A model generated the notes under the pieces. It was given only the letters and a program-made list of their open reading frames with translations. It searched no databases and had not been told where the DNA came from. Positions 3,099 through 12,998 of a stretch of 40,813 bases of DNA are shown here, piece by piece. The position numbers and the translations under genes are program-made. The stretch is taken from positions 1 through 40,813 of IMG/VR virus record IMGVR_UViG_3300042698_000008. The stretch is one strand, 5' to 3'. The DNA is from a virus. Position 1 is the stretch's first letter. The number at the start of each line of letters is the position of its first letter.

Positions 3099-3343
3099 CT
3101 GCCGCCCCATTCGACAATGCGAGCCCGTCCAGATGCGACAAGGGCAAGCTGTTCTTCGAATGTCAGGCGGTCACGCTTGGGCGCGGGCGCAAGGGCCTGG
3201 CCGGTTCGCTGGATGGCATCCCTAAGCAGTTCGCTACCGATCGCGGCTGACACGCGCGTTCGCTCATCGTGTCCAGTCCAAGGCGTCATCGCCTCTTTGC
3301 TGGTTCCGATTGGTCTTAGACCTGGGGCTAGGCTGAAGGTCAT
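3095..3343 (-). CDS. Hypothetical early protein (82 aa)
   Basis: 82 residues starting MTFSLAPGLRPIG at an ATG that overlaps the stop of the upstream C5 methyltransferase (ATGA). The C-terminus DRLTFEEQLALVASGRARIV is amphipathic. No known family is recognised. Its position between the methyltransferase and replication-type genes places it in the leftward early operon. Confidence 0.6.
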   Translation of the reverse strand: MTFSLAPGLRPIGTSKEAMTPWTGHDERTRVSAAIGSELLRDAIQRTGQALAPAPKRDRLTFEEQLALVASGRARIVEWGGR

Positions 3344-4431
3344 GCTGCCCTCGCTTGGGCCTGGAGGGCTTCGACCATCTGGATGCGCTCGCCGATCCAA
3401 CGCATCACCGGGACCGCCATCGAGTTGCCGAGCGCCTTGTAGCGCGGACCGTCAGCCGACCATTTGAACAGGTCGGGGTCCTGGTATGTCCCTTCCGCGA
3501 ACCGGCGCAGTTCTTCGGCTTCAGCCTTCTTGTTGCGCTTGCGCAGCGGAATGAGGGTGTAGTCATCGGGGAAGCCTTGGAGGCGTTCACACTCGCGAGG
3601 AGTGAGGCGCCGGACCGCAGAACCTAGGCGGACGCCCAAAACAACACCGGGCGGCGTATTCGTATCTAGGGTCTTGGTCGGTTTATCCGGTCCGTGCCAG
3701 CCGACGTTGCCACCTGATCCTTGATTGCTCAGCTCTAGGCTGGCGATGACATTGCATGTTTCCCAATCACCGCGCTTGCCTTCTCCGGCTGTGACACAGC
3801 GCGCAAGGCCATCTCCAGCGCCGCCGGCAATTGCTTCCCGCGTTTCTCGGCGCGGCGGAGTATCCCCCGACAGGCTGTGGCGCTCAAATAGTACCGCTGC
3901 GGCACGTCGCCAGTCTCCAAGATGTCCGACAACGAACACGCGGCGGCGGCGCTGTGGAACTCCAAAGAACTTAGCGTCAAGCACTCGGTAGGCGAACCCA
4001 TACCCGAGTTCTGCCAGCCCTCCGAGAATGGAACCAAAGTCCCGTCCTCCGTTCGACGACAGGACGCCGGGGACGTTCTCCCACACCAGCCATCGGGCGC
4101 CCGTGCGGTGAGCAAGCTTAAGAAACTGGAGTGCCAGGTTGCCACGGTCGTCGGCCAGCCCGCCTCTAAGTCCAGCGACCGAGAACGATTGGCAGGGGGT
4201 TCCTCCGACAAGAAGGTCAATTGGGCCATACTCATCGGCTCCGATGGTCGTGAAGTCGCCATGAAGGGGAACATCCGGATAGTGATGGGTCAGGACGGCT
4301 CGAGGGAATGCCTCGATTTCGCTAAACGCTGCCGGCCTCCATCCGAGCGGATGCCACGCGACAGTCGCCGCTTCGATGCCTGAGCAAACCGAGAAATATC
4401 TGAAGGCGCCTGTACGCGCGCCAGCAAGCAT
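3340..4431 (-). CDS. DNA (cytosine-5) methyltransferase
   Basis: 363-residue C5-cytosine methyltransferase with all major motifs in order: motif I FSVCSGIEAA (13-22), catalytic GTPCQSFS with Cys80, motif VI WENV (117-120), motif VIII QRRRRVF (160-166), a target-recognition region, and motif X RYKALGNSMAVPV near the C-terminus. It transfers a methyl group from SAM to carbon 5 of cytosine in DNA. No endonuclease gene accompanies it, so anti-restriction or regulatory methylation is the likely role. I use the ATG at 4431, which overlaps the upstream stop (TGATG), rather than a longer in-frame extension to 4572 that would run far into the upstream gene. Confidence 0.93.
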   Translation of the reverse strand: MLAGARTGAFRYFSVCSGIEAATVAWHPLGWRPAAFSEIEAFPRAVLTHHYPDVPLHGDFTTIGADEYGPIDLLVGGTPCQSFSVAGLRGGLADDRGNLALQFLKLAHRTGARWLVWENVPGVLSSNGGRDFGSILGGLAELGYGFAYRVLDAKFFGVPQRRRRVFVVGHLGDWRRAAAVLFERHSLSGDTPPRRETREAIAGGAGDGLARCVTAGEGKRGDWETCNVIASLELSNQGSGGNVGWHGPDKPTKTLDTNTPPGVVLGVRLGSAVRRLTPRECERLQGFPDDYTLIPLRKRNKKAEAEELRRFAEGTYQDPDLFKWSADGPRYKALGNSMAVPVMRWIGERIQMVEALQAQARAA

Positions 4432-4730
4432 CAGGGTATCTTCCACACGATCGCCGAGCGCCCTGAAGCGTTCTTGCGTCGTGTCCCGGTATCCATGAGT
4501 TTGCCGAACTTGTGGAGTTCGGTCACGCGAGGGCGGATCGAAAGCACTGATGACCGCATCGCGTCCGCACACTCATCAGCCGTCATTGCTCCGCGCCGTT
4601 GGAACTCGGTCAGAACCTTCCCGCGAAGCAGGCTTGCGGGGATGGATTCAGCAGCAGCGCGGCTTGTGTCGGTTCCGCGATGGCCGGCGACGGTCGGATA
4701 GCTGAATAAGTCGAAAGCGGGCTGGTTCAT
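4431..4730 (-). CDS. Winged-helix DNA-binding protein (99 aa)
   Basis: 99 residues starting MNQPAFDLFSYP. The segment LRGKVLTEFQRRGAMTADEC, followed by ADAMRSSVLSIRPRVTELH and GKLMDTGTRRKNASGRSAIV, reads as a winged helix: helix, turn, recognition helix (SIRPRVTELH) and a beta wing ending in VWKI. Proteins with this pattern are common in phage early operons and may act as regulators or replication accessories. The start at 4730 is chosen because it overlaps the preceding stop by 4 bases. Confidence 0.7.
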   Translation of the reverse strand: MNQPAFDLFSYPTVAGHRGTDTSRAAAESIPASLLRGKVLTEFQRRGAMTADECADAMRSSVLSIRPRVTELHKFGKLMDTGTRRKNASGRSAIVWKIP

Positions 4731-11664: not shown

Positions 11665-12054
11665 GTGTCTGGACCTGATCCGGCTTTCGCTGCTTCGCAG
11701 TCCAGCCAATCTTCGTTGTCTGGCCGGTTCCCGCTTCAATCCGGGGTAGGGTTCACGCCTGGACCGTGGCTCGTTGGAACTGGCAGCGGTGGCGGCGCCA
11801 CGACCTACGTTTATGAGGACGATGGATCGGGCCAGCAGTGCCGCGCAATTGCGGCCTGCACGCTTGAGTTTGTCGAGCGCCCAATGGCGGAACGCGAGGC
11901 CAATGCCCGCCTGATCCGCGCGGCACCGGACATGTTAGCCGCCCTTTGCGCAGTGAAGGCATACCACATCGACGCCAACCCAACGAAACTCACTGATGCA
12001 ACGGTGTGCGATCTCGTGTGCGGAGCCCTCGCCAAAGCGCGAGGCGAGCAATGA
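11665..12054 (+). CDS. Conserved-type small phage protein (FTPGPW family)
   Basis: 129 residues, GTG start directly after the preceding TAG. The core GFTPGPWLVGTG, followed by EREANARLIRAAPDMLAALC, is a pattern seen in many phage and prophage proteins of unknown function (FTPGPW ... ANARLI-AAPDLL-AL). The first 30 residues are Ser/Gln-rich and share a 14-base stretch (11705-11718) with the small gene at 13814. No enzyme motif is visible. Confidence 0.7.
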   Translation: MSGPDPAFAASQSSQSSLSGRFPLQSGVGFTPGPWLVGTGSGGGATTYVYEDDGSGQQCRAIAACTLEFVERPMAEREANARLIRAAPDMLAALCAVKAYHIDANPTKLTDATVCDLVCGALAKARGEQ

Positions 12055-12998
12055 GTGCCTTCTACAACGAACATGACCCCTTTGCCGCCGCGTGGCTTCG
12101 CGAGTTGATCGCGGACGGCCTCATTGCGCCTGGCATCGTTGACGAGCGGAGCATCGAAGATGTCAGACCGGACGAACTTGCCGGATTTGTTCAATGCCAT
12201 TTCTTCGCCGGTATCGGAGTCTGGAGCCTTGCCCTGCGAGAGGCGGGATGGCCCGACAACGCTCCGATTTGGACAGGATCCTGTCCATGCCAGCCTTTCA
12301 GCTCGGCAGGCAAAGGAAATGGGTTTGCTGACGAGCGGCACCTGTGGCCCGCTTTCCACTGGCTCATCGAACAGTCGCGTCCTGAGCTCGTCCTTGGCGA
12401 GCAGGTTGCATCCAGTGACGGCCTCGCTTGGCTCGACCTTGTACAAGCTGACCTGGAGGCAGCGGGTTACGCCTGCGGGCCGATCGATACCTGCGCTGCG
12501 GGCTTCGGCGCTCCGCAAATCCGACAGCGACTCTACTGGATGGCCGACGCCCACTACTCGGGATTGGAAGGACGGCTCTCTCAATCTGAACGTGCCGATG
12601 AATGCCCTCCTGGGCCGCGAAGTGTGGCTGACGGGCTGGAGCAGCCCCACTGTGGCGGAACGGGAGCGCAGCCCGGAGATCATTGCCAAGCTGGCAAAGA
12701 AGCGCCTGGAAACCTGCGGCCAAACGACCGTGCCCCTCTATCACTGCGAGCAGGCCCAATTAGTGCAGAACGGCCCGGCCCGCTTAACGGCTTCTGGAGA
12801 GATGCTGACTGGCTCTGCTGCACAGATGGAAAGTGGAGGCCGGTTGCACCCGGCACATTCCCTCTGGCTCCAGTTGGGGCCGTTCGCAACCGCGTGGGCC
12901 AGCTGCGCGGAGCGGGTAACTCGATCAACCTCGCGCAAGCCCAGGGCTTCATCGAAGCCGTAATCGAAACTCGGTCGATCCAGAGGCTCGCAGCATGA
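12051..12998 (+). CDS. DNA (cytosine-5) methyltransferase, second copy type
   Basis: 315 residues, ATG overlapping the previous TGA. Motifs: FFAGIGVWSLAL (51-62, motif I), SCPCQPFSSAGKG with catalytic Cys80 (motif IV), GEQV (117-119 EQV in place of the usual ENV), QIRQRLYWMADA (motif VIII) and a C-terminal part with GFWRDADWLCC, GKWRPVAPGTFPLAP and RGAGNSI (motif X). It is a different subfamily from the minus-strand C5 methyltransferase. About 85% of the gene (12160-12963) is also open in the +1 frame and that frame too encodes a protein-like sequence (next entry). No restriction partner is nearby. Confidence 0.88.
   Translation: MSAFYNEHDPFAAAWLRELIADGLIAPGIVDERSIEDVRPDELAGFVQCHFFAGIGVWSLALREAGWPDNAPIWTGSCPCQPFSSAGKGNGFADERHLWPAFHWLIEQSRPELVLGEQVASSDGLAWLDLVQADLEAAGYACGPIDTCAAGFGAPQIRQRLYWMADAHYSGLEGRLSQSERADECPPGPRSVADGLEQPHCGGTGAQPGDHCQAGKEAPGNLRPNDRAPLSLRAGPISAERPGPLNGFWRDADWLCCTDGKWRPVAPGTFPLAPVGAVRNRVGQLRGAGNSINLAQAQGFIEAVIETRSIQRLAA
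12160..12963 (+). CDS. ORF nested in another frame within the C5 methyltransferase gene
   Basis: 267 residues from the ATG at 12160 (MSDRTNLPDLFNAISSPVSE) to the stop at 12963, wholly inside the methyltransferase gene in the +1 frame. It is not random in character: it contains LSARQAKEMGLLTSGT, TGWPTPTTRDWKDG, a second WLTGWSSPTVAERERSPEII, and GPARLTASGEMLTG followed by MESGGRLHPAHS. I recall similar segments (TPTTRDWKDG; RLTASGEMLTGS-GMESGGQLNP) from phage proteins next to methyltransferases. No function is known to me. An open frame of this length opposite a GC-rich gene can arise by chance, so translation is not proven. Confidence 0.6.
   Translation: MSDRTNLPDLFNAISSPVSESGALPCERRDGPTTLRFGQDPVHASLSARQAKEMGLLTSGTCGPLSTGSSNSRVLSSSLASRLHPVTASLGSTLYKLTWRQRVTPAGRSIPALRASALRKSDSDSTGWPTPTTRDWKDGSLNLNVPMNALLGREVWLTGWSSPTVAERERSPEIIAKLAKKRLETCGQTTVPLYHCEQAQLVQNGPARLTASGEMLTGSAAQMESGGRLHPAHSLWLQLGPFATAWASCAERVTRSTSRKPRASSKP

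Follow-up and report, generated by a model that had tools for sequence, protein, structure and literature searches.

The window analysed here is the whole 40,813-nucleotide stretch of a virus record. It contains a gene for a C5-cytosine methyltransferase at 12051–12998 (plus strand), within which a second frame, shifted by +1, is open from an ATG at 12160 to a stop codon ending at 12963. This nested frame has 267 codons with no internal stop and spans 85% of the methyltransferase gene; the +2 frame of the same gene has 13 stops. The locus raises the question of whether the nested frame is a gene and, if so, what its product contributes to the enzyme around it.

Direct reading of the DNA confirmed the open frame and the peptides quoted for it in an earlier, sequence-only reading. 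However, an equally long +1 run was obtained in 184 of 10,000 synonymous permutations of this gene (1.8%), and codons redrawn from the other genes of the window gave a run at least as long in 189 of 10,000. The open frame of a single gene is therefore weak evidence by itself, and it was dropped as proof of a gene. The sequence-only reading had also argued that the motif content spoke against chance. There is indeed more than chance here, and this becomes decisive across relatives, but the protein-like look of one GC-rich gene is insufficient. An antisense ORF of 292 codons (11811–12689, minus strand) also overlaps the methyltransferase, and it is probably a by-product of codon constraint.

Conservation, selection and the start of the nested frame

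A long +1 frame is present in all of the 164 related loci. Eighty of these loci were fetched with the methyltransferase alone as the query, so they were not picked for their +1 frame. The longest +1 run in 146 distinct genes ranges from 230 to 423 codons, with a median of 304. Homologues with a +1 frame broken by stops had been named as evidence against a nested gene; none of that kind was found among these loci, and the frame is open in the relatives. A tblastn search with the nested protein found 203 phage records, with alignments covering 80% or more of the protein in 88 of them, and phages whose hosts differ widely share the same nested frame. In many records only frame 0 is annotated, and the nested products of other records are hypothetical or unannotated.

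Loci from bacterial genomes were also fetched with the nested protein alone, and all 80 match a methyltransferase in the −1 frame. Where the nested frame has "stops" in these loci, they sit in the last residues of the C-terminal tail; the one exception is an endosymbiont prophage in which both frames are decaying. No standalone nested homologue, lacking a methyltransferase in the other frame, was found among the 80 genome loci. Synechococcus phage Ssp-JY39 and Komagataeibacter phage phiKX1 were candidates for a standalone gene by annotation, and both were rejected because the methyltransferase is present in the other frame. The second product had been described as one of unknown function. It does have relatives: its profile matches phrog_31772 (3.1e-21) and phrog_1008 (2.5e-16), both labelled DNA methyltransferase, and phage K1H has an annotated nested homologue. 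The label of these two families does not prove that the nested protein can methylate DNA by itself. A Pfam scan of 98 members gave no credible family, and the copy in the window had no Pfam match at E ≤ 1.

Selection on the nested frame was evaluated against a null in which the methyltransferase protein of each relative was kept and its synonymous codons were permuted. The similarity of the nested frame to that of the window lay above this null in 100 of 100 relatives (z 6.9–13.4; identity 0.49 vs 0.29). Similarity in the +2 frame was likewise raised (z 3.4–9.0), as expected because it shares bases that are held by the +1 frame. The synonymous excess, defined as identical codons at conserved methyltransferase residues minus the expectation from codon usage, is 0.44 within the nested ORF, but only 0.07 over the 36 codons that precede its ATG and 0.09 past its stop. 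The first ~40 nested codons are weakly constrained (0.13–0.17). Selection in both frames, which the sequence-only reading had called for, is thus borne out by synonymous change that is strongly depressed within the nested ORF only; free substitution at the synonymous sites of the methyltransferase, the other observation proposed as a refutation, was not found. The second C5 methyltransferase of the window failed as a negative control, having a nested ORF of its own, and 26 chromosomal Dcm-type methyltransferases were used instead. These show a flat synonymous excess of 0.017 and +1 runs with a median of 70 codons. Because the Dcm-type set is more diverged (pairwise identity 0.38 vs 0.62), the comparison within the gene weighs most.

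The pattern of substitutions also changes along the gene. In 77 close pairs, the shares falling on frame-0 codon positions 1, 2 and 3 are.15/.10/.75 in the 5′ part,.32/.15/.53 in codons 75–165, and.47/.25/.28 in the variable region; there, conservation is stronger in the nested frame than in frame 0. A conditional BLOSUM test showed that nested replacements at synonymous changes are milder than expected in codons 75–165 (−1.23 vs −1.57); it gave no signal in codons 240–300 and 37–75. The variable region (12546–12770 in the window) is a dual-coded, length-variable, recognition-type region. In the window and in relatives such as L283 and L319, its nested frame has a variable copy number of GWPTPTxxD repeats, and its frame 0 has (G)(L/M)A(D/N) repeats.

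The nested start codon (12160–12162) is an ATG in 77 of 101 non-redundant relatives, and a Shine-Dalgarno-like GGAG is located 8 bases 5′ of it (12148–12151). Among 216 genes, GGAG occurs at −12 to −9 in 127 of the 167 with an ATG at this position and in none of the 49 without it, although these counts come from related sequences and are not independent events. The GGAG is written by AGG or CGG arginine codons together with AGY serine codons of the methyltransferase. Many genes without the usual ATG have an alternative upstream ATG with its own GGGAG. The co-variation of GGAG and ATG favours internal initiation over frameshifting, and the conserved start would permit separate translation of the nested protein. 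In gene 58 of phage N15 (L328) and in phage pangalan (L327), the nested core is conserved and the usual GGAG–ATG is absent. Sequence comparison leaves very little doubt that the nested ORF is a real gene under purifying selection.

Division of the motifs between the two frames

The frame-0 product (315 residues) matches the profiles of phrog_363 (7e-78) and PF00145 (2e-13), which confirms its earlier identification as a C5 enzyme. It has motifs I–VIII and X, and no motif IX is recognisable. The catalytic PCQ motif IV (PCQPFS, 12285–12302), which lies within the overlap and is invariant as PCQ.FS in family alignment A3, is present together with motifs VI, VIII and X, as in a C5-cytosine methyltransferase. 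The core of motif X (GNSI) is at 12915–12926. A match to an HMM of M.HhaI covers residues 70–172, corresponding to motifs IV to VIII, and ends at motif VIII. In the AlphaFold model, residues 1–170 (the catalytic domain) and a C-terminal helix are ordered, residues 170–290 are mostly unordered, and the fold of the ordered part is that of a C5 methyltransferase. The frame-0 chain is thus predicted to be without an ordered small domain.

Just upstream of motif X, the nested frame contains a motif-IX-like segment, RLHPAHSLWLQLGPFATAW (12841–12897, plus strand); the same DNA read in frame 0 is not motif-IX-like. The segment in the window is a variant two codons longer than the family consensus, QLNPAHSRWLMGLPPEW, and is without its MGLP core, and the motif pattern misses it. 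The same longer form occurs in loci L019, L024 and L081; therefore, it looks like the form of a subfamily rather than decay. One-frame methyltransferases of actinobacteriophages have LSPVFVEWMMGLPRGWV ahead of motif X.

Four families (A–D) were compared. Motif IX is found in the +1 frame in 200/216 members of family A and 47/57 of family D (together 247/273), and never in frame 0. In families B and C it is found in frame 0, in 66/73 and 65/75 members, respectively (together 131/148), and never in +1. Frame 0 of family A has the motif-IX pattern in 0 of 216 members and motif X in 214 of 216. Motif-IX profiles of the nested frame match those of frame 0 between families (A vs C, 2e-11; D vs C, 3e-17; D vs canonical B, 2e-8; A vs B, 1e-4), with E-values that are inflated because the segments were picked with the pattern. 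An unselected hhalign comparison of the nested with the canonical family placed the segment correctly and was not significant. In families A and D the synonymous constraint extends across motif IX, whereas in B and C it stops short of this motif. The Mycobacterium phage Estave1 (L334, 1408–2508) shows the reverse of the window, with PTP/STP-type repeats and a motif-IX-like segment in frame 0, possibly because of a frame exchange between the two chains.

The earlier suggestion that the second product might be tied to methylation is supported by this distribution, since the nested family carries the motif-IX-like segment that is missing from frame 0. The division is that of M.EcoHK31I, and for this reason the nested gene is taken to encode a beta polypeptide. 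Frame 0 has motifs I–VIII and X and not IX, like the large polypeptide of M.EcoHK31I-type enzymes, and the second polypeptide carries motif IX family-wide, the window copy being a variant. We consider it probable that the +1 ORF is a real gene with an internal GGAG–ATG start, and that it encodes the beta chain of a two-polypeptide C5 methyltransferase. A ribosome would start the nested ORF at this internal site within the methyltransferase message, and the product would supply motif IX, missing from the alpha polypeptide encoded by frame 0. The two chains would then assemble, and we infer, as we do for translation in the cell, that methylation would need both. What the comparisons show directly is the coding, the purifying selection, the start signal, and a motif-IX-like segment in +1 where frame 0 has no recognisable one; the function as a subunit is inferred. 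A structural model of the nested protein is mostly of low confidence, with a helix and hairpin near residues 71–117 as its only confident part, and a fold search with it gave no structural match. Families B and C keep the nested ORF though their frame 0 has motif IX; therefore, the partner must do more than supply this motif, at least in those families.

A second pair of this kind is present on the minus strand of the window. The second C5 methyltransferase (3340–4572; phrog_116, 1.1e-89; PF00145, 1.5e-47) has motifs IX (RRLTPRECERLQGFPDDY) and X in frame 0. Its nested +1 ORF (3735–4229) begins with a conserved ATG at 4229 and has a stop codon ending at 3735. The synonymous excess is about 0.3–0.7 along this ORF, against mostly 0 to 0.1 outside it, and in each of 64 non-redundant relatives the +1 run is 153 codons or longer. 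The start is an ATG in 62/81, mostly with a purine-rich stretch upstream. The product ends in VPQRYYLSATACRGILRRAEKRGKQLP and matches phrog_1008 weakly (E 0.079). A common origin of the two nested proteins is suggested, though not proven, by sequence. The partner in the second pair must have a different role, since motif IX is already present in frame 0 there. A third DNA methyltransferase gene (phrog_67) lies at 595–1308 on the minus strand; therefore, the 40.8-kb record holds three methyltransferases.

Alternative readings of the nested frame

There might be no nested gene at all, the +1 frame being open as a result of GC content, codon bias and the protein sequence of the methyltransferase. 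The 1.8% of synonymous permutations that reach the same run, a figure for this gene alone, and the raised +2 similarity (z 3.4–9.0) agree with such an origin. However, the constraint begins and ends with the nested ORF, a start signal is present, the codon-position shares of substitutions are shifted, and nested replacements are milder in codons 75–165 (−1.23 vs −1.57) and not in the 5′ part. The frame is also kept across phages of quite different hosts, and the Dcm control is flat. This explanation is largely refuted, and we attach almost no probability to it. Programmed frameshifting, by which the +1 sequence would serve as an alternative C-terminal half of the methyltransferase instead of a separate protein, is very improbable, even though joined frames would rebuild a canonical enzyme, as other families have motif IX in frame 0. 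N15, pangalan and some other phages have no obvious nested ATG close to its usual position, which is in keeping with frameshifting, but the GGAG–ATG is conserved and co-varies, and the clade without the usual start has a second start with its own GGGAG. Moreover, the motif X that follows the +1 motif IX is still read in frame 0.

The nested ORF could also be a real overprinted gene whose protein is no methyltransferase subunit, such as a regulatory or counter-defence protein. The same coding evidence fits this explanation, and so does the presence of the ORF in families B and C, where frame 0 has all motifs; the well-ordered part near residues 71–117, which overlaps motifs IV–VIII, is without a known homologue. 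We nevertheless regard this role as unlikely. Motif IX occurs in one frame only, beside motif X, the nested segment matches the frame-0 motif IX of the actinophage enzymes, and no nested copy was found without a methyltransferase in the other frame among the loci fetched. Beyond the two-polypeptide enzyme proposed for the window, several phage C5-methyltransferase families may share a nested +1 partner as a general trait, one that would be retained even with a complete set of motifs on the main chain. Its common part would overlap motifs IV–VIII in four families, and motif IX would have moved between the frames (nested chain in A and D, main chain in B and C). The chances of this wider generalisation are, in our estimate, evenly balanced.

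Known two-polypeptide enzymes and nested genes

The small polypeptide of M.EcoHK31I is reportedly encoded in an alternative frame within the gene of the large one. The window pair shows the same division of motifs as this enzyme, a likeness drawn from the published description of that enzyme. According to the summary of Lee, Kam and Shaw (1995) in PMC3404938, M.EcoHK31I (YGGCCR) is a two-polypeptide C5 methyltransferase with motifs I–VIII and X on the large subunit and only IX on the smaller. Unlike M.EcoHK31I, the window enzyme is an orphan phage methyltransferase with no neighbouring nuclease recognised, and in the variable region of the phage pair the nested frame is more conserved than frame 0, whereas the recognition domain of M.EcoHK31I is predicted in the large subunit. 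M.AquI is a split C5 methyltransferase of two polypeptides with motif IX on the smaller one (PMC3404938). That subunit also holds motif X and half of the variable region, whereas motif X of the window enzyme stays in frame 0 and 85% of its gene is shared by the two frames.

The same nested +1 arrangement is annotated as two genes in phage K1H (ORF29/ORF28, "C-specific methylase" and "Mte8-like protein") and in Paenibacillus phage Genki (LYCANUS1_56/57). The nested +1 CDS of Genki (L335, 1451–2155) is named "DNA cytosine methyltransferase", like its frame-0 gene. In both phages, the nested products are known by annotation only, and no role, selection test or start-signal analysis of them was found in the literature searched. 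ShiLan also has a second protein out of frame within a phage methylase gene. However, that is a mobile insertion with a patchy distribution, whereas the ORF of the window type overlaps conserved catalytic motifs and occurs throughout the family. A mobile out-of-frame HNH endonuclease of the ShiLan type was rejected because the nested ORF is in all relatives, spans motifs IV–VIII, and has no HNH family among 98 members. A literature search found no paper on this phage pair, on the signal at its start, or on a shift of motif IX from one frame to the other. The kind of enzyme is already known through M.EcoHK31I; what sets the phage pair apart is how widely it occurs, how far the nested frame dominates the variable region, and the retention of that frame even where motif IX is in frame 0.

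With relatives in N15, epsilon15 and K1H, laboratory phages allow tests of a long-conserved gene pair with an almost complete overlap of 267 codons. Research on overlapping genes gains a large natural data set of four families with internal controls. If the proposal is true, many phage annotations of a "DNA cytosine methyltransferase" cover half an enzyme, and synonymous recoding of such genes for cloning would silently destroy the partner.
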